From Rhodopseudomonas sp. BR0M22 (GTDB lineage Bacteria > Pseudomonadota > Alphaproteobacteria > Rhizobiales > Xanthobacteraceae), in contig NZ_QUMK01000063.1 in assembly GCF_010907035.1 (NCBI RefSeq), positions 1 to 34,917 of the forward strand: a stretch of 34,917 nucleotides of DNA, in the 5' to 3' direction. The position numbers were made by a program, and so were the translations under genes. Shown here one piece after another: positions 350 through 11,288 of the stretch. The notes below the pieces were generated by a model. The model searched no databases. It was given only the letters and a program-made list of their open reading frames with translations, and had not been told where the DNA came from. The number at the start of each line of letters is the position of its first letter. The first letter of the stretch is position 1.

Positions 350-1621
350 ATGACCAGCCTCGCGGAGCTCACCAGCAATCCGGACGAATTGATCCGCCAG
401 GATCGCGTCCGCACGCCGCTCTACACCGACCCGGCGATCTTCGAAGCCGAGATGACCAAGATTTTCCACAACACCTGGGTCTGGGTCGCGCATGTCAGCG
501 AGATCCCGAACAACGGCGACTTCAAGATGGCGCAGGTCGGCCTCGATCCGGTGATCGTGGTGCGCGACCGCAAGGGCGAGGTCCACGTCCATCTCAACCG
601 CTGCCGCCACCGCGCCGCGACGCTGTGTGAAGTGCGCAAGGGCAAGACCTCGAGCTTCGTCTGCCCGTATCACGGCTGGGGCTACTCGCTCGACGGCAAG
701 CTGCGCGGCGTGCCTTACGAGAACGGCTACAACGAGGAGCAGATCGACCGCAGCAAGCTGTCGCTGAAGTCGCTGCGCGTCGAAGAATACAACGGTCTCT
801 TGTTCGCCACCTTCCGCGACGACATCGAGCCGCTCGCCGACTTCCTGGGGCCGGCGAAGAAGTGGATCGACCTGTTCATGAAGCAGGGCGGCGGCTATCC
901 GGTGAAGACGCTGGGCGAGCACAAATTCCGCTTCCCCGGCAACTGGAAGATCCAGCTCGAGAACACCACCGACGCCTACCACTTCCCGCTGGTGCACAAA
1001 TCGTTCCTCACCGCGGTCGACAAGGAAACCGAGCAGCAGCTCGACATGCTGAACAATGGCGGCTTCGTCGAGGACCTCGGCAACGGCCACAGCGTGATGG
1101 TGATGATCCCCGAACTGATCGACCTCGACGACAATCTCGAAGCGCCGATCCCGGAAAAATTCGCCGATCTCGCCAAGGAGCTGGCGGCCGAGGGTTACTC
1201 CGACACAGAAGTGCGCCGCATCGTCCGCGCCGTCGGCGGCTCCGGCTTCAACATCAATCTGTTTCCCAATCTCGCCTGCTCGATGGCGTTCTTCCGCGTG
1301 CTGCAGCCGGTGTCGGTGAACGAGACCGAGATCCGCCACATCGCGATCGGCATGGACGGCGGTCCGGCGGCCGCCAACCGCGCCCGCATCCGCCTGCACG
1401 AATTCTTCCAGGGCCCGATGGGCTTCGGCAGCCCGGACGACGCCGAAGTGTGGGACCGTGTCCAGCACGGCGCCAAGGGCGGCGAGGACATGTGGATCAT
1501 GCTCCACCGCGGCCTCAACAAGGAAGAAAGCCTGCCCGACGGGCGGCACCGCAGCGACGTCAGCGCCGAAACCGGCATGCGCGCCGCCTATGATCAGTGG
1601 AAGCGGATGATGGCGGTCTGA
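350..1621 (+). CDS. Rieske non-haem iron ring-hydroxylating dioxygenase, alpha subunit
   Basis: This is the catalytic large subunit of an aromatic ring-hydroxylating oxygenase, 423 residues, normal for the family. The N-terminal Rieske [2Fe-2S] domain has ligands C85-x-H87 and C105-x2-H108 (CRHRAA and CPYHGW). The catalytic domain has the mononuclear iron motif ENTTDAYHFPLVHKS with D208, H211 and H216; the third ligand is probably an Asp of SPDDAEVWDR near residues 363-364. The start is supported by AAGGA at 337-341, 8 bases before ATG. The beta-subunit gene starts two bases after the stop, so the two are cotranscribed. No ferredoxin or ferredoxin reductase is visible, so the electron donor must be encoded upstream of the window or elsewhere. 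It resembles benzoate/anthranilate and IacC-type oxygenases; the substrate is inferred only from context. Confidence 0.93.
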   Translation: MTSLAELTSNPDELIRQDRVRTPLYTDPAIFEAEMTKIFHNTWVWVAHVSEIPNNGDFKMAQVGLDPVIVVRDRKGEVHVHLNRCRHRAATLCEVRKGKTSSFVCPYHGWGYSLDGKLRGVPYENGYNEEQIDRSKLSLKSLRVEEYNGLLFATFRDDIEPLADFLGPAKKWIDLFMKQGGGYPVKTLGEHKFRFPGNWKIQLENTTDAYHFPLVHKSFLTAVDKETEQQLDMLNNGGFVEDLGNGHSVMVMIPELIDLDDNLEAPIPEKFADLAKELAAEGYSDTEVRRIVRAVGGSGFNINLFPNLACSMAFFRVLQPVSVNETEIRHIAIGMDGGPAAANRARIRLHEFFQGPMGFGSPDDAEVWDRVQHGAKGGEDMWIMLHRGLNKEESLPDGRHRSDVSAETGMRAAYDQWKRMMAV

Positions 1622-1623
1622 CC

Positions 1624-2133
1624 ATGAACATGACGATGACGATCCCCACCACCACCGCATCGACTATCACGCTCGCCGAGGCGATGGAATTCGTCTGGAC
1701 CGAGGCCGACCTGCTCGACCATGCCGTCTATGACGAGTGGCTGTCGCTGTGGACCGCGGATGCCCGCTACATCGTGCCGATCGAGCCGGGCGTCACCGAT
1801 TTCGGGAACGCCGTGAACTACGCCTATGACGACCACGAGATGCGCAAGAAGCGCGTCGAGCGGCTGCTCAGCGGCCAGTCGGTCTCGGCCTCGCCGGTCG
1901 CCCGCACGGTCCGTTCGCTGTCGCGCTTCCGGATGCTGAAGACCAGCGAAACCGCGTGCGAGCTGCGCTGCGCGCAGATCATCACCGAATTCCGCCGCGG
2001 CCGCGAGCGGACCTACACGGGCGATGTGGTGTTCGAGCTGGTGCGCAGCGAGTCCGGCCTGAAGATCCGCCGCAAGGTGATCTGGCTGATCAACTCGACC
2101 GAGGCGCTCGGCGGCATCGGCTATATCCTATGA
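1624..2133 (+). CDS. Ring-hydroxylating dioxygenase, beta subunit
   Basis: The 169-residue protein has the cystatin/NTF2-like fold expected of the small structural subunit of Rieske dioxygenases. Typical features are an N-terminal helix that begins the fold (LAEAMEFVWTEADLLD), the YDEWLSLWTADARYIVPI segment, and a C-terminal strand region (KIRRKVIWLINST). It partners the alpha subunit just upstream, probably as an alpha3beta3 complex. ATG 1624 lies two bases after the alpha stop; in-frame ATGs also occur at 1630 and 1636, so the first few residues (MNMTMT) are uncertain. A longer frame from 1597 would overlap alpha and is not preferred. The stop overlaps the next start as ATGA, indicating translational coupling. 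Confidence 0.9.
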   Translation: MNMTMTIPTTTASTITLAEAMEFVWTEADLLDHAVYDEWLSLWTADARYIVPIEPGVTDFGNAVNYAYDDHEMRKKRVERLLSGQSVSASPVARTVRSLSRFRMLKTSETACELRCAQIITEFRRGRERTYTGDVVFELVRSESGLKIRRKVIWLINSTEALGGIGYIL

Positions 2134-2891
2134 GCACTGCGGCCCCCCAGAGCGGGCGCGTCGCGCTGGTCACCGGCGGTGGCGGCGGCCTCGGCGCCAT
2201 CATCGCTGAGGCGCTACATGGCGCCGGTTATCGGGTGGCGATCGGCGATATCGACGAGGCGGCAGCCAAGGCCGTCGCGACGCGGCTGGACGCCGGAGGG
2301 ACGACGGCGTTCGGGCTGAAGCTCGACGTCCGCCGCAAGAGCGACTTCGATGCCGCGCTGGCGGCAATGCTGGCGCGCTGGAACGACGCGCATGTGCTGG
2401 TCAACAACGCCGCCGTCACGGTGGCGCGGCCGGTGATGGAGATCTCGCCGGAAGAATTCGACGAGGTGATCGCCGTCAATCTGCGCGGCACATTCCTCGG
2501 CTGCCAGGTGTTCGGCGCGTATTTCCGCGACGCCGGCCATGGCCGCATCGTCAACATGGCGTCGCTCGCCGGCCAGAACGGCGGCACCGCAACGGGTGCG
2601 CACTACGCCGCCTCGAAGGGCGGCATCGTCACGCTGACCAAAGTGTTCGCGCGCGATCTCGGCAAGTCGGGCGTCACCGTCAACGCCATTGCACCGGGCC
2701 CGCTCGATCTGCCGATCGTGCACAGGACGGTGCCGGCAGAGCGTTTCGCCGAGTTCAAGGCCAACATCCCGGTCGGCGATATCGGCGATCCCGGCTTCGT
2801 GGCGCAGATCGTGCTGCAGCTGGCTTCCCCCGAATCCGGCTTCGTCTCCGGCGCGACCTGGGACGTCAACGGCGGCCTGTTCATGCGATGA
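2130..2891 (+). CDS. Short-chain dehydrogenase/reductase in the dioxygenase operon
   Basis: A classical SDR of 253 residues, NAD(P)-dependent. The nucleotide-binding motif TGGGGGLG is at 15-22, NNAA at 92-95, Asn at 117 (VNLRG), and the catalytic Ser145, Tyr159 and Lys163 (YAASK). Asp40 at the end of strand 2 (AIGDID) suggests NAD(H) preference. In ring-hydroxylation pathways such an enzyme often oxidises the cis-dihydrodiol or a hydroxylated intermediate; IacE of iac clusters is also an SDR. ATG 2130 overlaps the stop of the beta subunit, and the SDR stop overlaps the flavin reductase start, so the genes form a tightly coupled string. The exact substrate is unknown. Confidence 0.9.
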   Translation: MSTAAPQSGRVALVTGGGGGLGAIIAEALHGAGYRVAIGDIDEAAAKAVATRLDAGGTTAFGLKLDVRRKSDFDAALAAMLARWNDAHVLVNNAAVTVARPVMEISPEEFDEVIAVNLRGTFLGCQVFGAYFRDAGHGRIVNMASLAGQNGGTATGAHYAASKGGIVTLTKVFARDLGKSGVTVNAIAPGPLDLPIVHRTVPAERFAEFKANIPVGDIGDPGFVAQIVLQLASPESGFVSGATWDVNGGLFMR

Positions 2892-3415
2892 GGGCGGCAA
2901 TGATGACCACGGTGGAACGGAGCGAGTTTCGCGAGGCGATGAGCCGGCTGGGCGCAGCCGTCAACATCATCACCACTGACGGAGCGGCCGGGCTGCACGG
3001 CCTGACCGCCTCGGCGGTGTGCAGCGTCACCGACGATCCGCCGACGCTGCTGGTCTGCGTCAATCGCGCCTCCAACGTCCACGCCGCGCTGTCCGCCAAC
3101 GGCGTGCTATGCGTCAATGTGCTGGCGAGCCGGCACCAGGAACTGTCCAATCTGTTCGGCCGCGGCGGCATTCCGGTGCACGAACGCTTCGCCGGCGCGG
3201 AGTGGCACACGCTGAGCACCGGCGCGCCGGCACTCGCCGATGCCGTGGTCGGCCTCGACTGCAGCATCGCGCAGGTCACCGAGGTCGGTACCCACAGCGT
3301 GTTCTTCTGCCGGGTGCAGGCGATCGCGCTCAGCGCGCATCCCGAGGGGCTGATCTATTTCAACCGCGCCTATCACGACATCGCGCCGCGCGCGCACGAC
3401 GTCTGCCATTCGTAA
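2888..3415 (+). CDS. Flavin reductase (HpaC/RutF-like), likely partner of the flavin monooxygenase
   Basis: The 175-residue protein belongs to the flavin_Reduct family. Features are the N-terminal FREAMSRLGAAVNIITT stretch, GLTASAVCSVTDDPPTLLVC (flavin phosphate-binding region), NVLASRHQELSNLF, and a C-terminal GLIYFNRAYH. Such enzymes use NAD(P)H to make FMNH2 or FADH2 for a diffusible-flavin monooxygenase, here most simply the truncated protein at 1-297; IacG has this role in iac clusters. The 2888 start overlaps the SDR stop (ATGA). ATG codons at 2900 and 2903 are better placed behind GAGGG (2890-2894), so the mature N-terminus may begin at MMTTVERS. Confidence 0.88.
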   Translation: MRAAMMTTVERSEFREAMSRLGAAVNIITTDGAAGLHGLTASAVCSVTDDPPTLLVCVNRASNVHAALSANGVLCVNVLASRHQELSNLFGRGGIPVHERFAGAEWHTLSTGAPALADAVVGLDCSIAQVTEVGTHSVFFCRVQAIALSAHPEGLIYFNRAYHDIAPRAHDVCHS

Positions 3416-3428
3416 TGAGGCCCGCATC

Positions 3429-3995
3429 ATGACCATCGACCAACTCGCCGCGACCGTGCAGGCGCTCCAGGACCAGGTCGCGACGCTGACCGCCGAAGCG
3501 GAGATCCGCCGCATCCAGGCACGCTACATGTTTCTGTGCGATACGCCCTGCCCGGAATTCGGCGTCGAGGACGACGCCGAGCGGATCGAGCGCATCGTCG
3601 ATCTCTACGCCGAGGATGCGATCTGGGAAGGCGTCGGCGCCTATTACGACAATCAGTTCGGCCGCAGCGTCGGCAAGGACGCGATCCGCAAGCACTTCCA
3701 GGGGTTCTGGGGGCAGAAGCGAGATCCCGCGCTGGTGCTCAACGTGCACTATCTGACCTCGGAACAGATCCATGTCCGCGGCGACGAGGCCGACGGCCAA
3801 TGGGTGCACTGCCAGCCCTGGATCTTCAGCGACGGCTCGTCGCTGCTGCGCTCCAGCCGGCTCAACAATCTGTTCCGCAAAGAGGCCGGCGTCTGGAAGA
3901 TCGCCCGCACCCGCACCGAGAACCTGTTCGTGGCGCCGCTCAAAGCGGGCTGGGCCGAAAGCGTGCCCGAAAAGTCCGTGCTGATGCGGCCCTGA
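3429..3995 (+). CDS. NTF2/SnoaL-like protein with N-terminal coiled coil
   Basis: The 188-residue protein starts with a short heptad-like helix (QLAATVQALQDQVATLTAEA) followed by a SnoaL-type cone fold: EIRRIQARYMF, DLYAEDAIWEG, GKDAIRKHFQGFW, and a terminal NLFRKEAGVWKIARTR. Members of this fold include isomerases, cyclases, dehydratases and dioxygenase small subunits. It lies 13 bases after the flavin reductase, with GAGG upstream of ATG. Genes of this type accompany Rieske and flavin monooxygenase genes in aromatic catabolic operons, and one is part of iac clusters in my recollection. It is not a second beta subunit by obvious sequence match. Its reaction is unknown; an auxiliary isomerase or hydrolase step is an inference. 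Confidence 0.75.
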   Translation: MTIDQLAATVQALQDQVATLTAEAEIRRIQARYMFLCDTPCPEFGVEDDAERIERIVDLYAEDAIWEGVGAYYDNQFGRSVGKDAIRKHFQGFWGQKRDPALVLNVHYLTSEQIHVRGDEADGQWVHCQPWIFSDGSSLLRSSRLNNLFRKEAGVWKIARTRTENLFVAPLKAGWAESVPEKSVLMRP

Positions 3996-4035
3996 GCGAT
4001 CACGCTTCCTTCGACGATTGATAAGGACTTTCTCG

Positions 4036-4449
4036 ATGACCACACCGCCGACTTTGTCATTCGCCGACGCCGTGCCGCTCGAGGCCGACGCGCTGCACCG
4101 TCTGCTGCAGGCCTGGTTTCGCGCCGAGGGCAGCGACGATCCGGCTGCGATCCGCGCCCGCTTCGACGACGGCTTCAACATGGTGAGCCCCGCCGGCAAG
4201 GTGCTGCCGTTCGCGCAATTCTCCGCCGGCCTGCCGACGATGCGCGGCTCCCGGCCGACGCTGATCATGGAGATCAGCGAGGTCGTGGTGCGCTATCAGG
4301 ATGACAAGACGGCGGTCGTCACCTATCGCGAGCGCCAGATCCAGGACAGCGGCACCACCGACCGGCTCTCCACCGCGCTCCTGATCCAGCGCGACGACCG
4401 GCCGACGCCGGTGTGGCGGCATCTGCAGGAGACCTGGATCACGCCGTGA
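4036..4449 (+). CDS. Second small NTF2-like (SnoaL/DUF4440-type) protein
   Basis: A 137-residue protein with the pattern of an NTF2-like fold: DALHRLLQAWFRAEGSDDPA, then FDDGFNMVSPAGKVLPF, a central strand TLIMEISEVVVRYQDDKTAVVTYRE, and VWRHLQETWI at the end. The start at 4036 is supported by AAGGA 4023-4027 with an 8-base gap; an upstream in-frame ATG at 4018 lacks such a site. It shares little sequence with the upstream SnoaL-like protein, so this is not a recent duplication. It sits 40 bases downstream in the same operon. No catalytic residues can be named, and the function is unknown. Confidence 0.65.
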   Translation: MTTPPTLSFADAVPLEADALHRLLQAWFRAEGSDDPAAIRARFDDGFNMVSPAGKVLPFAQFSAGLPTMRGSRPTLIMEISEVVVRYQDDKTAVVTYRERQIQDSGTTDRLSTALLIQRDDRPTPVWRHLQETWITP

Positions 4450-4810: not shown

Positions 4811-5584
4811 TTATCGTCCGCGCTCCGCACCGCCATTGATCTGGACAATCTGTGCGGTGATGTGAACAGCTTCGGCGGAAGTCAGCCATCCCACGGCGTT
4901 CGCAACGTCGCTTGGCAAGCCTGCGCGGTTGTTGAGGGTCTCCGCGAGTTTGGCTTGGTACTGATCTTCGCTGAGTGCGGAGCCGAAGAATTCAGTGTCT
5001 GCAATGTAGCCGGGCGCGATCGTGTTGACCGTAATCCCCTTCGCGCCGAGGGTCTTGGCGAGATCGAAGCAGTAGGGATGCAGCGCAGCCTTGGCAGCAC
5101 CGTAACATCCGGCGCCGGAGCCGCGATAGGCTGCGATCGAACTCATGAAGAGGATACGCCCCCCCGGTGTCCGCATCTTCGGGAGAAGTGCTTCGGTCAA
5201 CAGCACGGCCGACAGCGTATTCATGGCGAAGTTGTCCGTCCAGCGGCGAGCAATGCCTGCAAGGCCATCCGCATAGGTGGATGATGGAAAGCGGCGTTGC
5301 ACATGGCCGCCGGCGGCATTGATCAGCACGTCGATGTATTCAAATCGCTCGTCGATCTCGCCACGGAGGGCTTCCACCTGCTCGGCGGATGTAAGATCTG
5401 TCGCAAATGGCAGCACCTTTGGCGCATCAGGAAATTCGTGCTCAATGGCCGAAGCCGCATCGCGCAGAACTTGCTCGCGCCGGCCGATGATGGCGACTCG
5501 CGCATTGCGGGCGGCGAAATACTTGGCGCAGGCCAGCCCGATCCCGGTTCCGCCGCCGCTGATCACGACATGCTTCGACATCAT
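4811..5584 (-). CDS. Short-chain dehydrogenase/reductase (FabG-like)
   Basis: A 257-residue classical SDR. The coenzyme motif is GGGTGIG at 10-16, with Ser in place of the usual preceding Thr; NAAG is at 89-92, and the catalytic set is Ser148/149, Tyr161, Lys165 (YGAAK). An Arg-Arg after strand 2 (IIGRREQ, about 34-37) suggests NADP(H). The C-terminus ends QIVQINGGAERGR as in FabG-type 3-oxoacyl reductases. It is read from ATGATG at 5584/5581 behind GGAG. It follows the CoA-transferase gene by 18 bases on the same strand, so the pair is an operon, probably acting on an acyl-CoA or its hydroxy/keto form. The substrate is not identifiable. Confidence 0.88.
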   Translation of the reverse strand: MMSKHVVISGGGTGIGLACAKYFAARNARVAIIGRREQVLRDAASAIEHEFPDAPKVLPFATDLTSAEQVEALRGEIDERFEYIDVLINAAGGHVQRRFPSSTYADGLAGIARRWTDNFAMNTLSAVLLTEALLPKMRTPGGRILFMSSIAAYRGSGAGCYGAAKAALHPYCFDLAKTLGAKGITVNTIAPGYIADTEFFGSALSEDQYQAKLAETLNNRAGLPSDVANAVGWLTSAEAVHITAQIVQINGGAERGR

Positions 5585-5602
5585 TTCAACTCCATCGAAA
5601 AA

Positions 5603-7021
5603 TTAGGCATCCACCGTCGACCAAGCGGCCGGAGAAGAGCCGAGCAGTGGCGCAGGCAGATCCCACGCCATCGGTGCGCCATCGATTGTGACAGGCGGAC
5701 ACAGGCGCTTGGCTGGACCCCAGCCGGTCTGCTCGATTGCATCGGCGAGGTCCGCTTCGCTTTCCGCCGCGAGGCGGGGCGCATCGATCGACTGACTTCC
5801 GCCGGAGATCAGCAACTTCGCTGTCCGCGCAAGCGATGCACGCGCCTCGCTTCCATGTCCGGTCTTCTGCCGCTCCGTCAGGCCGCGGATGGCTGCTGAA
5901 GCCATCAGATAACCCGTGGCGTGGTCGATGGCCTGGCCGGGAAGCGGCGTCGGCCGATCTTTCTGCAGCACACGCATGCCACCGTCGGCGATGCCGGTGC
6001 TCATCTGGATCAGGCTGTCGAAACCGCGCCTGACGCGCCACGGACCGGTCCAGCCATAGGCGGCAAGGCTGACATCGATCAGGTCGGGCTTGATCGCGCG
6101 GCGACGTGCTGCGTCGAGGCCGAGGCGTGCGAGCGCATCGGGACGATAGCCATGGACGAAGACGTCTGCCTCGGAGAGCAGCGTCTCGAGCACATGCATG
6201 CCGTCCCGCGACTTCAGATCGAGGCGCGCGCAGCGCTTACCGAGAACGACTTCGGGCACTGTGCCCGGCTCTTCCCAGCCATACGGGTCGATGCGCAGAA
6301 CCTCGGCGCCGAAACCGGCAAGAAAGCGCGTCGCCACCGGCCCTGCGAGAATGCGCGTCAGGTCCAGCACACGGACACCTTCGAGCGGCCGATGCGCGGG
6401 AATTGGCCGGCGCGGCCTGGCGTCTGCGGCGAAGCCTGTACGGTGCAGCAGGGGCTCGCTGTTGACCGCGAGACCCTGCGGATGATCGCCCCACTCATCG
6501 ATCGTGCGCATCGATGCGGCACAGCCATTCGCTGCGACGATTGCGGCCTCCAATGGGTCCGACTCCCATTCCGCCACGGCGTTTGCCACGGCATTGCGGT
6601 CGATGGCCGTCTTCAGAACCGACATCGCCGCGTCGCGATGATGCGGCGCATTGGTATGCAGGCGGATCCAGCCGTCTGCGGTCTCGTAGTCGCCGGCAAC
6701 CGCATCCCATTGCGGCGGCATCGACCAGCCTTGCGGCCGCAGCGACGTCTGGAACCAGAATGACGCGAGCCGTCGATCGATCACCACCGGCGGGACAGCG
6801 CCCGCTCGCAGCGAGATCAATTCAGCGACAGCCAGCGACGCGGCCCCGATCGCCGCGTTCGCCAGATCGCTGACGTGAAACGCCGATGGCAACGATCCCG
6901 ATCCGGTCTGCGAGAGATGCGGCAGGAAATCCGGATCGCCTCCTGCGGCTGTCCAGATATCGCGCAAGTACACGTTGAACGGCGAGTTGTCCTGCTTGTC
7001 GATCGACGTATACTTGTTCAT
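5603..7021 (-). CDS. Class III CoA-transferase (CaiB/BaiF family) with unusual domain order
   Basis: A 472-residue protein. The second half, from about residue 212, carries the CaiB/BaiF Rossmann-type start (PLEGVRVLDLTRILAGPVA, then GFGAEVLRIDP) and RGFDSLIQMSTGI, whose Asp sits where the family's catalytic Asp is expected. The first half, about residues 95-195, looks like the small domain normally found after it: ADGWIRLHTN, then a segment ending SMRTIDEWGDHPQG. Canonical members (about 400 residues) have the reverse order, so this appears permuted. ATG 7021 (MNKYTSIDK) has AGG upstream; a longer frame from 7078 would run into the divergent promoter. It heads a two-gene operon with the SDR and likely moves CoA between carboxylic acids. 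Substrate unknown. Confidence 0.85.
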   Translation of the reverse strand: MNKYTSIDKQDNSPFNVYLRDIWTAAGGDPDFLPHLSQTGSGSLPSAFHVSDLANAAIGAASLAVAELISLRAGAVPPVVIDRRLASFWFQTSLRPQGWSMPPQWDAVAGDYETADGWIRLHTNAPHHRDAAMSVLKTAIDRNAVANAVAEWESDPLEAAIVAANGCAASMRTIDEWGDHPQGLAVNSEPLLHRTGFAADARPRRPIPAHRPLEGVRVLDLTRILAGPVATRFLAGFGAEVLRIDPYGWEEPGTVPEVVLGKRCARLDLKSRDGMHVLETLLSEADVFVHGYRPDALARLGLDAARRRAIKPDLIDVSLAAYGWTGPWRVRRGFDSLIQMSTGIADGGMRVLQKDRPTPLPGQAIDHATGYLMASAAIRGLTERQKTGHGSEARASLARTAKLLISGGSQSIDAPRLAAESEADLADAIEQTGWGPAKRLCPPVTIDGAPMAWDLPAPLLGSSPAAWSTVDA

Positions 7022-7073
7022 GGTGCACCTACTTTGCAAACGTATTGCGGAAGTTGGCTCCCAGGAAACGAAT

Positions 7074-7098
7074 GTCAACGTTGACTATATAAATCAAC
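7074..7098. promoter_or_regulatory. Divergent promoter with a perfect 12-bp palindrome (candidate operator)
   Basis: GTCAACGTTGAC at 7074-7085 is a perfect palindrome, and TCAAC at 7094-7098 repeats a half-site in inverted orientation to 7080-7084. The palindrome holds a -35-like TTGACT on the + strand (7081-7086) and TTGACA on the - strand (7083-7078), so one bound protein could block both divergent genes. The -10 elements are weak: ATAACG at 7104-7109 for + with a 17-base spacer. The likely ligand is the adjacent HTH-citrate synthase protein or the LysR regulator (inference). Confidence 0.5.
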
Positions 7099-7116
7099 CA
7101 ACAATAACGGCGCACG

Positions 7117-8301
7117 ATGACGATCTACCTCTCTTCGAAAGAAGCTGCGACGCGTCTCGGCGTCTCGCGACAGACACTCTACGCTTATGTCAGTCGCGGC
7201 CTGCTGCGGTCGCAGGCGAAGGAGACCCATCGCGAAAGCTTGTATCTCGCATCGGATGTCGAGAAGCTCGCGCTCCAGCGGGCGACAGGCCGCAGGCCGA
7301 AAGAAATCGCCAAGGCCGCATTGAACTGGGGCACGCCGGTTCTCGAATCCGCGATCACGCTGATCGAGCATGAACGCATGTTCTACAGGGGCGTCGACGT
7401 GCTGGCGCTTGCGGAAACGCACCGGCTCGAGGATCTCGCAGCGCACCTGTGGTCCTGCGACAGGGACGCCGGATTCAACGCTCCGGCTCCGACATTCCCT
7501 GCGGCGATGCTCGCCGTCATGGACGCGTATCGCGGTCGTCGGGCGGAGCAGGCACTGCTGCCGCTCTTCACCGTGGCAAGTGACGACGATGGCACGTCGC
7601 TTCGGCAGACGTCGTCGCGGCATCTGATCGAAGGATGCGCGGCGATCGTCCGGACGCTTGCGGCCTGCCTGCTGGGAACAATCCCCGATGCGGCGCCCAT
7701 TCACCAACAATGTGCTGTTGCGTGGCGCGTCGACCGGGACGGCGCCGAACTGATCCGGATGGCGCTCGTATTGTGCGCCGATCACGAACTGAATGCGTCG
7801 AGCTTCACCGCCCGCTGCATCACATCAGCCGGCGCCAGTCTACGGGCTGCCGTGATCGGCGGTCTTGCGGCGCTCACCGGCGCCCGCCATGGCGCCACCA
7901 CGGCGCGCGACGAGGCGCTCTGGGACGACATCGGCAGCAGCGATATCGAAAGAAAAATGCGCGAGCGGATTGCTGGAGGCCTGGACATTCCAGGCTTCGG
8001 GCACCCGCTATATCCGGGCGGCGACATCCGCGCCGATGCACTGCTTCGCCGGATCATGCCGCATCATCCGGAATGGCAGGATTTCGTCAAAGCCGCATTT
8101 ACGCTGACCGGGCAGCACCCGTCCGTCGATTTCGCGCTGGTCGCACTTCGGCGACATCTGAACCTGCCGATCGGCGCCGCATTCGGCATCTTCGCTTTGG
8201 GGCGCTCGGTCGGCTGGCTCGCGCATGGCCTCGAGCAGCGCAACAGCCCGGATATTATCAGGCCGCGCGCGTCCTATGCCGGCAACCGGCCCACGTCATG
8301 A
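7117..8301 (+). CDS. Citrate synthase-family protein with N-terminal helix-turn-helix domain
   Basis: A 394-residue fusion. Residues 3-60 form a MerR/excisionase-type HTH (YLSSKEAATRLGVSRQT, then SRGLL and a DVEKL wing). Residues about 70-394 are a citrate/2-methylcitrate synthase domain with the expected active-site positions present: His223 (ADHELN), His258 (RHGA), His296 (GFGHPLY), Asp338 (SVDF), Arg363 (GRSVGW) and Arg382/Arg384 (RPRASY). It could therefore bind DNA and also bind, or turn over, an acyl-CoA plus oxo-acid. The gene is divergent from the CoA-transferase/SDR operon with a palindrome between them, which suggests ligand-responsive control of that operon. No clear Shine-Dalgarno precedes ATG 7117; a leaderless transcript is possible. 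The family is known from genomes, but its function is not established to my knowledge. Confidence 0.88.
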   Translation: MTIYLSSKEAATRLGVSRQTLYAYVSRGLLRSQAKETHRESLYLASDVEKLALQRATGRRPKEIAKAALNWGTPVLESAITLIEHERMFYRGVDVLALAETHRLEDLAAHLWSCDRDAGFNAPAPTFPAAMLAVMDAYRGRRAEQALLPLFTVASDDDGTSLRQTSSRHLIEGCAAIVRTLAACLLGTIPDAAPIHQQCAVAWRVDRDGAELIRMALVLCADHELNASSFTARCITSAGASLRAAVIGGLAALTGARHGATTARDEALWDDIGSSDIERKMRERIAGGLDIPGFGHPLYPGGDIRADALLRRIMPHHPEWQDFVKAAFTLTGQHPSVDFALVALRRHLNLPIGAAFGIFALGRSVGWLAHGLEQRNSPDIIRPRASYAGNRPTS

Positions 8302-8311
8302 GGGGGGCGAG

Positions 8312-8467
8312 ATGACGGAAGCGCGATGGATGTCCCATCTGCCCGGCAAGGCCTTCACCCTCCCGATGCCGGCGGAAGCCATCAAGACAGCGCCGCTGCG
8401 ACTGGCCCTCCCGATCTGCGATCAGCTCGTCGGCACAGGCGGACACTGGATAATGGAGGGCTCGTGA
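8312..8467 (+). CDS. Possible small protein coupled to the LysR gene
   Basis: A 51-residue frame starts at ATG 8312 behind a purine-rich GGGGGG tract (8302-8307) and ends at TGA 8465-8467, overlapping the GTG start of the LysR gene. The product (MTEARWMSHLPGKAF, ending GGHWIMEGS) has no recognisable domain, signal peptide or membrane segment. The good ribosome-binding site and stop/start overlap are the only support. It may be a leader peptide for LysR translation, or a chance frame. Confidence 0.35.
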   Translation: MTEARWMSHLPGKAFTLPMPAEAIKTAPLRLALPICDQLVGTGGHWIMEGS

Positions 8468-9390
8468 GCGATTGGAACGAATTCAGGATAGTGCTGGCCA
8501 TCGCACGGGCGGGCTCCCTGGCAGGAGCGGCCAAGACCCTGGGGCATGACCATTCGACGATCTTCCGCTGGCTGAACCTTCTGGAGAAGCGGCGAAGCGT
8601 GCAACTGTTCGATCGCACCTCACCCGTCTACACGCCGACCGACGCCGGGCTTCAAATGGTGATGGTCGCCGAGCGGCTCGAGGCCGAGATCATGGCGCTT
8701 GATCGATCGATCACAGGACAAGACGCCCGTCTTTCGGGAAAGCTCAAGATCACCTCGTCGGAGACCCTGGCCTATCGAATTCTCAATCAGGTGCTCGCCG
8801 ACTTCTGCGACACGCATCCCGTCATCGAGATCGAGCTTCTCGTCGACAACCGCCAACTCGATCTTTTGCGGCGAGAAGCGGACATCGCTATCCGCGCGAC
8901 ACGCCCGCACGAGGGCGAACTGTTCGGACGGAAGATCGCATCGACGCCGTGGACGTTCTACGGAAGCCACGCATATTTCGCGAAACGCGGTCGACCCGAC
9001 GATATGAATTCACTAACGGGGCATTCCATCATCGGCTGGGACAGTGCCGCTTCGGCTGCTGCGGCCGTGTGGTTGACGGACAGCATCGCCGCGAGTGCCT
9101 TCGCATATCGGTCGAGCAGCCTGATCAATCAGCTCATGGCGGTGAAGGCCGGCGTCGGATTGGCTCTGCTGCCGTGCTACTTGGGTGATCTCGAACCCGA
9201 TATCGACCGCATTATCGATCCGTTAGATGAGCTGACACGCGAATTGTGGCTTATCACGCACAAGGATCTGCGCAACACGGCTCGTGTACGAGCATTCTTT
9301 GACCACGTTGGCGCCGGCCTGCTCGCGCGGCGTCCGCTGCTCGAGGGCGACTTGAGCCACCGGGCGACATCGACCTCCGCACTCCCGTAG
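8464..9390 (+). CDS. LysR-family transcriptional regulator
   Basis: A 308-residue LTTR. The N-terminal winged HTH spans about residues 2-62 (WNEFRIVLAIARAGSLAGAA, then LFDRTSPVYTPTDAG); the C-terminal periplasmic-binding-like effector domain follows (LSGKLKITSSETLA, READIAIRATRP, VKAGVGLALLPCYLGD). The start is GTG 8464 behind GGAGGG (8455-8460), a slightly short gap, with the stop of the small frame 8312-8467 overlapping it. It probably controls the neighbouring CoA-transferase/SDR/citrate-synthase module or the downstream genes. LTTR sites (T-N11-A) were not assigned. The C-terminal tail after about residue 285 is variable in such proteins. Confidence 0.9.
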   Translation: MSDWNEFRIVLAIARAGSLAGAAKTLGHDHSTIFRWLNLLEKRRSVQLFDRTSPVYTPTDAGLQMVMVAERLEAEIMALDRSITGQDARLSGKLKITSSETLAYRILNQVLADFCDTHPVIEIELLVDNRQLDLLRREADIAIRATRPHEGELFGRKIASTPWTFYGSHAYFAKRGRPDDMNSLTGHSIIGWDSAASAAAAVWLTDSIAASAFAYRSSSLINQLMAVKAGVGLALLPCYLGDLEPDIDRIIDPLDELTRELWLITHKDLRNTARVRAFFDHVGAGLLARRPLLEGDLSHRATSTSALP

Positions 9391-11213: not shown

Positions 11214-11288
11214 TGGCTGGGGCGGGAGGGATCGAACCTCCGCATGGGGGAATCAAAATCCCCTGCCTTACCGCTTGGCTACGCCCCA
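11214..11288 (-). tRNA. tRNA-Gln (anticodon TTG)
   Basis: On the - strand the gene begins TGGGGCG and ends CGCCCCA-G-CCA, a 7-bp acceptor stem, discriminator G and encoded CCA. The D-arm is GCCAAGCGGTAAGGC. The anticodon arm is GGGGA-TTTTGAT-TCCCC with TTG at positions 34-36, reading CAA (Gln). The T-arm is GGAGG-TTCGATC-CCTCC. All stems pair. The length of 75 bases including CCA is normal. Confidence 0.97.

Follow-up and report, generated by a model that had tools for sequence, protein, structure and literature searches.

What does a protein that joins a DNA-binding domain to a citrate synthase do beside a CoA-transferase operon? The question is raised by a locus in the window, a 34,917-nucleotide stretch of DNA from Rhodopseudomonas sp. 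BR0M22, where an earlier note had described such a fusion and had suggested either an enzyme that senses acyl-CoA and oxo-acid levels or a bifunctional enzyme and regulator. On comparative sequence evidence, and with a probability of roughly three in four, we read the protein, here called HTH-CS, as a one-component regulator in which a citrate-synthase fold serves as the sensor, and which binds a 24-bp element and probably represses both itself and its neighbor. The gene and its domains lie in the window as follows.

7117..8301, forward strand: HTH-CS fusion gene, encoding the proposed regulator of 394 amino acids (open reading frame, Pfam and model)
7126..7278, forward strand: HTH_17/MerR-like DNA-binding domain, residues 4-54 (Pfam; helix-turn-helix and two-strand wing in the model)
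7327..8268, forward strand: citrate synthase domain, the proposed sensor, residues 71-384 (Pfam and structure matches)

Pfam analysis recognized both domains. The Citrate_synt profile (PF00285) matched residues 71 to 384 with 177 bits against a cut-off of 27 (E 7.1e-52), and the match covered profile positions 3 to 357 of 357. At the N terminus, HTH_17 (PF12728) matched residues 4 to 54 with 32.4 bits, above its cut-off of 27, MerR_1 scored 23.4 bits, above its cut-off of 21.6, and MerR (PF00376) scored 24.5 bits, below its cut-off of 28.2. An AlphaFold2 model built on an 11-row alignment (mean pLDDT 81, pTM 0.75) contained a helix-turn-helix, a two-strand wing, and one more helix within residues 1 to 58, followed by a low-confidence linker at residues 57 to 77. 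The closest solved structure to the model was 1ixe_B (E 5.3e-12), and the best 50 structures listed were all citrate or 2-methylcitrate synthases. Pfam, together with alignment to the genome's own citrate synthase, bears out the fusion and the retention of active-site residues that the earlier note had described. The gene itself begins at 7117, and position 7074, where the range given in that note starts, is the left edge of an operator-like element.

The genes on the other side of that element are read in the opposite direction.

5603..7021, reverse strand: divergent CaiB-type CoA-transferase family III gene, with an ATG at 7021 (the longest open reading frame reaches 7078)
4811..5584, reverse strand: SDR gene (Pfam), after an 18-bp gap behind the CoA-transferase gene

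The coordinates of the CoA-transferase gene hold if the ATG at 7021 is the start. Because the gap to the SDR gene is 18 bp, the two genes probably form one operon. Open reading frames, Pfam, and the sequence itself agree with the earlier description of a CoA-transferase/SDR pair divergent from HTH-CS with a palindrome in between. The intergenic features are the following.

7074..7097, forward strand: operator-like element GTCAACGTTGACTATATAAATCAA, the sole genome copy at up to one mismatch and conserved upstream of homologues
7074..7085, no strand assigned: perfect 12-bp palindrome GTCAACGTTGAC, which makes up half-sites one and two of the 24-bp element

The 24-bp element has the general form RTCAAYNTTGAY-N7-RTCAA and consists of three TTGAY half-sites separated by spacers of N2 and N7. 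A genome scan allowing one mismatch returned a single site in the Rhodopseudomonas genome. That single copy, and the recurrence of the element upstream of homologues, indicate by sequence comparison that the palindrome is beyond chance. As coding sequence in the window the element was ruled out, as the HTH-CS frame has a TAA within it. Moreover, the distance from element to start codon was spread over all three frames among 84 homologues (40, 27, and 17), which makes a coding origin across the homologues unlikely.

The pattern RTCAAYNTTGAY-N7-RTCAA was first seen in the intergenic sequences of 11 loci. It was then counted at 101 distinct loci from the protein search, a set that leaves out four loci found by motif only (L121, L123, L127, and L130). 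A strict element lay within 300 bp upstream in 84 of the 101 loci, or in 73 of 90 once the first 11 were set aside, and neither count is blind, as the letters of the pattern had been fixed after upstream sequences had been viewed. Measured to the chosen start codon, the strict elements begin 23 to 98 bases upstream, in most cases no more than 60. Beyond the bases fixed by the pattern, position 24 was T in 68 of the 84 and position 26 was T in 72. The strict element was absent from the remaining 17 loci; 13 of these had a form with one to three mismatches, L149 has the element at its operon head, L150 has it with a shorter spacer, and nothing convincing was found upstream at L030 and L084. We note that a spacer shorter by one base was present at L169 and at the Deinococcus plasmid loci L150 and L199. 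Among seven further named plasmid loci, the strict element was present in three, Thioclava L201 had one mismatch, and L199 accounted for the shorter spacer. Embleya L200, from the Actinomycetota, had only a two-mismatch short form, and no element was found at Acidovorax L202 or, outside the 101 loci, at L173 and L179. Also outside the 101, L170 and L180, which come from two related genomes, carry a differing upstream repeat, TTTACA...TGTAAA, perhaps a putative operator that changed jointly with its regulator.

At E <= 1e-35, protein search detected an HTH-CS homologue in 37 of the 296 family genomes, 42 of the 385 class genomes, and 49 of the 398 phylum genomes sampled. Identity to the window protein was 64 to 66% in Achromobacter, 54 to 55% in Azospirillum, 44.6% on plasmid At of Agrobacterium fabrum C58, and 36 to 42% in Burkholderia, Comamonas, Ensifer, Thioclava, and Deinococcus. 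By tblastn, the partner gene at the 101 loci was a second citrate synthase without the HTH, here called CS2, in 70, CaiB in 14, and another or unrecognized gene in 17. The strict element accompanied each class: 60 of 70 CS2 loci, 13 of 14 CaiB loci, and 11 of the 17 others. Since the element stands upstream whatever the partner gene, the case for regulation does not depend on CaiB.

The less frequent partners were varied, and the heuristic gene caller used to find them overlooked genes at L163, L164, and L166. At L161, L162, L163, and L165 the partner was prpB-prpC, each time with scores above cut-off for both PrpB and PrpC; at L164 it was acnD (1,782 bits against a cut-off of 1,420), and L107 also faces acnD, of the same pathway as prpB-prpC. 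Further partners were a D-2-hydroxyacid dehydrogenase with parts of a tripartite tricarboxylate transporter, a CitMHS transporter scoring above its cut-off (L170 and L180), an HMGL-like gene on two Deinococcus plasmids, and an MFS transporter. Many partners thus belong to citrate-type chemistry, namely citrate synthase, prpB-prpC, acnD, CitMHS, tripartite tricarboxylate transport, and the HMGL-like gene; DUF2332, methyltransferase, and, at L202, aromatic-ring dioxygenase partners fall outside that theme. By eye, the HTH-CS/CS2 pair of L009, L010, and L011 lies between genes resembling clpX and lon.

A quick-search tree of 78 rows less than 80% identical, with L030 left out, indicated that the partner gene has been exchanged several times. 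Four changes were required for CaiB as partner, and starred branches force three of these; among themselves, the four recurrent partner types required five. Counting all labels, with "none" and single-row labels included, gave 14 changes, or 15 with L107 taken apart. CaiB was the partner in all five rows of the clade that holds the window, Achromobacter, L095, L014, and Azospirillum, and CoA-transferases 58 to 67% identical to that of the window face the HTH-CS gene at six Achromobacter loci, L014, L095, and L146. The linkage to CaiB proposed in the earlier note therefore stands for the clade of the window but not as the theme of the family, where CS2 (70 of 101) far exceeds CaiB (14 of 101). 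The survey of HTH fusion and CaiB co-occurrence that the earlier note had called for gave a divided answer, as homologues were mostly unlinked to CaiB over the 101 loci and uniformly linked to it in the 5 rows of that clade. As the defining theme of the whole family, CaiB linkage was discarded.

The element also followed the gene when whole genomes were scanned, for which the form RTCAAYVTTGAY-N7-ATCAA was used in place of the pattern used for the locus counts. Seventy of the 113 identified HTH-CS genomes were scanned, and 55 sites were found in 54 of them, with one copy in 53, two in one, and none in 16; the reversed pattern was found in none of the 70. Among 385 genomes of the class, the element occurred in 28 of 42 with an HTH-CS gene and in 9 of 343 without (Fisher p 1.6e-24), these being the same genomes as in the homologue search, many of them already viewed. 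By coordinates, 27 of the 28 co-occurring sites adjoin the HTH-CS gene, which in G490 is divided between two contig ends. The remaining one (G620) and eight of the nine sites in genomes without HTH-CS lie inside long open frames, and the copies in the 9 of 343 genomes without a detected HTH-CS gene appear chance-like. When one mismatch was allowed, 8 of 10 genomes had a single site and two (G039 and G1067) each had one extra one-mismatch site; the control gave one match, in G1003. With a single site in 8 of 10 genomes, a wider regulon for the element was rejected.

The arrangement at one plasmid of Burkholderia cepacia (L149) separates the element from the start of the HTH-CS gene. There, HTH-CS is the last gene of an SDR-MFS-VOC-HTH-CS operon, and the strict element lies at the head of that operon, facing a 2-hydroxyacid (D-glycerate) dehydrogenase gene and not beside HTH-CS. 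A second copy with two mismatches lies closer to the SDR gene, and L166 too carries this pair of elements within a single divergent intergenic region. Because the element tracks HTH-CS over partners, layouts, and operon heads, which would otherwise be hard to explain, the HTH-CS protein is the likely binder. The regulatory role proposed earlier thus gains strong comparative support from a conserved element that is mostly the sole genome copy, and the CaiB linkage that accompanied it is confined to the clade of the window.

We infer the DNA binding, ligand, sign of regulation, and oligomeric state of HTH-CS, and the mechanism may be pictured as follows. The N-terminal winged HTH would bind positions 7074 to 7097, in the gap that separates HTH-CS from the CoA-transferase/SDR operon. 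HTH-CS would dimerize in the manner of citrate synthases and place its HTH heads on TTGAY half-sites, and the bound protein would block both divergent promoters, repressing HTH-CS and the CoA-transferase/SDR genes alike. Repression is suggested by the position of the element, 23 to 98 bases before the start codon. When oxaloacetate binds to a citrate synthase, the two domains of the enzyme close. In HTH-CS, the citrate synthase domains would likewise close on a citrate-like tricarboxylate, an oxo-acid, or an acyl-CoA, and closure would alter the distance between the two HTH heads of the dimer, such that the putative operator would be released or remodeled. The half-sites look like back-to-back -35 boxes, and in the MerR family the operator occupies a long spacer that separates the -35 and -10 boxes. 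A simple consensus scan found no sigma-70-type promoter in 7022 to 7116, and thus an overlap of element and promoter is at most suggested by the TTGAC half-sites.

If the citrate synthase domain is a sensor, its pocket should be weighed against its catalytic center. Residues H223, H258, H296, R305, D338, R363, R382, and R384 of HTH-CS align with their equivalents in the genome's own citrate synthase, and we take the roles of these pocket and catalytic residues from general knowledge of citrate synthases; the PrpC position that matches R384 is Ser. In an alignment of 114 rows (105 homologue loci and nine distant members), R305, R363, R382, and R384 were without variation in 114 of 114, and H223 was kept in 111, H258 in 108, H296 in 108, and D338 in 109. 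With the arginines invariant and the catalytic residues sometimes lost, the carboxylate pocket seems, from the alignment, to be under firmer selection than catalysis. Two of the catalytically degenerate members, L170 and L180, adjoin a CitMHS transporter gene. In the CS2 partners, Glu replaced the catalytic Asp in seven of seven inspected (L010, L147, L151, L153, L178, L183, and L184), and the solved chains 2c6x and 8gi7 likewise have Glu at that position.

The pattern of conservation bears on an alternative in which HTH-CS is a bifunctional trigger enzyme that condenses an acyl-CoA with an oxo-acid to citrate, 2-methylcitrate, or a related acid and also represses the locus that encodes it; its binding to DNA would then report the state of the active site. 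We regard this alternative as possible but on balance improbable; it overlaps the reading of HTH-CS as a one-component regulator, and the odds of the two are not exclusive. H223, H258, H296, D338, and all pocket arginines are present in the window protein and most homologues. A pure sensor would not need intact catalytic residues, which counts against that reading, and with every active-site residue in place catalytic activity of the window protein is possible. Against the trigger enzyme, five distant members (L169, L170, L173, L179, and L180), for which the alignment is less sure, have lost both H258 and D338 and kept the arginines. HTH-CS also fell below every NCBIfam citrate/methylcitrate synthase cut-off listed, its top score being 114.4 bits against the 332 required by NF009005, and the Rhodopseudomonas genome encodes one other citrate synthase, a full one at a separate site (465 bits), which makes HTH-CS an accessory copy.

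A further point against the trigger enzyme comes from Caulobacter crescentus. The CS2 protein of L113 had as its best match the chain 2c6x, named citrate synthase 1, over its full length with 223 bits, and the window HTH-CS matched the same chain with 65 bits, best over residues 214 to 392. We take 2c6x to be B. subtilis CitA. In the parts covered of Berge et al. 2020 (PMC7083601), citB and citC (CCNA_03757 and CCNA_03758) are adjacent extra citrate synthase genes whose products are 37% and 32% identical, respectively, to B. subtilis CitA, and an E. coli gltA mutant was complemented by CitB but not by CitC. HTH-CS and CS2 are likewise an adjacent pair of extra citrate synthase genes, and from the 2c6x matches and the CitA identities in the same parts of that paper we infer that CitC is an HTH-CS and CitB a CS2. 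Provided that CitC belongs to the HTH-CS family, its reported failure to complement argues against full citrate synthase activity. Those parts describe no regulatory role for CitC, and the term "helix-turn-helix" occurs zero times in the main text. In the portion covered of PMC11475020, the CCNA_03757 promoter served as a negative control for IscR binding.

In another alternative, HTH-CS would be an accessory citrate or methylcitrate synthase, with the HTH a structural add-on and the element the property of another regulator; this is very unlikely. The NCBI names given to such proteins ("citrate synthase family protein," "citrate synthase," and "citrate/2-methylcitrate synthase") agree with an enzyme, but the mostly single-copy element follows HTH-CS over partner changes, operon layouts, and two phyla, and a site of a separate regulator is not expected to move with the HTH-CS gene. 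Least probable is a regulatory subunit that contacts its partner enzyme (CS2 or CaiB) and uses the HTH for autoregulation only: mixed oligomers are conceivable where the partner has the citrate synthase fold, the commonest case (70 of 101), but the partners also include CaiB, prpB-prpC, acnD, transporters, and dehydrogenases, for which we know of no citrate synthase interface, and L166 and L149 hold two element copies in a single divergent intergenic region.

The one-component regulator favored here is of a familiar kind. Enzyme folds serve as sensors in MocR/GabR (aminotransferase fold), NrtR (Nudix fold), and the ROK repressors (kinase fold). Like these, HTH-CS combines an HTH with an enzyme fold that keeps its ligand pocket, and its local target adjoins the regulator gene; to our knowledge, none of the three uses the citrate synthase fold. 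By sequence and model, HTH-CS has the make-up of such regulators, with a DNA-binding domain, an enzyme fold, and a conserved ligand pocket, and by sequence alone it has a conserved cognate operator at its local target. In Bacillus subtilis, the gene of the minor citrate synthase CitA faces that of its LysR-family repressor, CitR. The CS2 gene similarly lies opposite a putative repressor gene, but unlike CitR, the candidate repressor is built from citrate synthase itself. On Agrobacterium fabrum C58 plasmid At, ATU_RS25370 belongs to the same family, at 44.6% identity, and faces a second citrate synthase gene in divergent orientation; the element begins 36 bp 5' of its homologous start codon. 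NCBI names it a "citrate synthase family protein," an enzyme label only, and its table gives neither an operator nor a regulatory role.

A literature search, mostly outside the subscription journals, returned no description of a citrate-synthase-fold regulator or of an HTH-CS relative as a regulator, and the citrate synthase fold thus appears undescribed in a sensor role within the literature searched. Suvorova et al. (2012) reportedly treat the regulators of propionate and malonate. The portion covered of PMC12153269 compares the PrpR of Xanthomonas citri with that of Salmonella and describes the former, the product of an upstream gene, as repressing prpB and binding the palindrome GTTGCAA-N2-TTGCAAC. 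HTH-CS is likewise proposed to bind a palindrome, but the PrpR site in that portion differs in sequence and was ruled out as the same element.

The presence of the same short element at most relatives, whatever the neighboring gene, suggests on comparative grounds that evolution has turned a citrate synthase into a metabolite-sensing gene switch. If so, regulators rather than enzymes may stand behind many entries labeled "citrate synthase family protein," and the family would offer an entry point to how bacteria read citrate, methylcitrate, or acyl-CoA at extra citrate synthase and methylcitrate-cycle genes. It would also explain why Caulobacter CitC resembles a citrate synthase and yet does not function as one. 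A wider proposal is tentative and less likely than not: HTH-CS may belong to a widespread, unrecognized family in which citrate synthase was made into a transcription factor, the operator was kept, and the target was exchanged, and whose members with an intact active site, that of the window included, are trigger enzymes at the entry to the citrate and methylcitrate pathways. Such a family would extend over the Alpha- and Betaproteobacteria, other families of the phylum, and the Deinococcota.

The surroundings of the locus include one further regulator gene.

8326-9390, forward strand: LysR-family regulator gene, 3' of HTH-CS and co-directional with it (Pfam)

No counterpart of the LysR gene was found in L003 to L012 by tblastn (E <= 1e-5). 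The stretch from 4811 to 9390, comprising the CaiB, SDR, HTH-CS, and LysR genes, had no full-length counterpart in 15 other genomes of the genus, where only short weak matches were found. Given this absence and the close protein relatives in Achromobacter and Azospirillum, the stretch was probably acquired by horizontal transfer. The CoA-transferases of the window (5603-7021, reverse strand), L003 (6461-7930), and L174 (6294-7694) share an unusual domain order. The first 200 or so positions of the Pfam CoA-transferase profile match residues of about 208 to 423 of these partners, and the N-terminal part of the L174 protein matches profile positions 159 to 314, an order that resembles a circular permutation of the domain; the N-terminal part of the window protein gave no match to the CoA-transferase Pfam profile. 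A tRNA-Gln lies at 11214-11288. On the other side, the forward-strand genes from 350 to 4449 include some that by eye resemble a ring-hydroxylating dioxygenase pair and an SDR gene. Behind these, Pfam recognized a flavin reductase gene and two SnoaL-like/DUF4440 genes, and the whole is perhaps an aromatic degradation cluster beside the HTH-CS locus.
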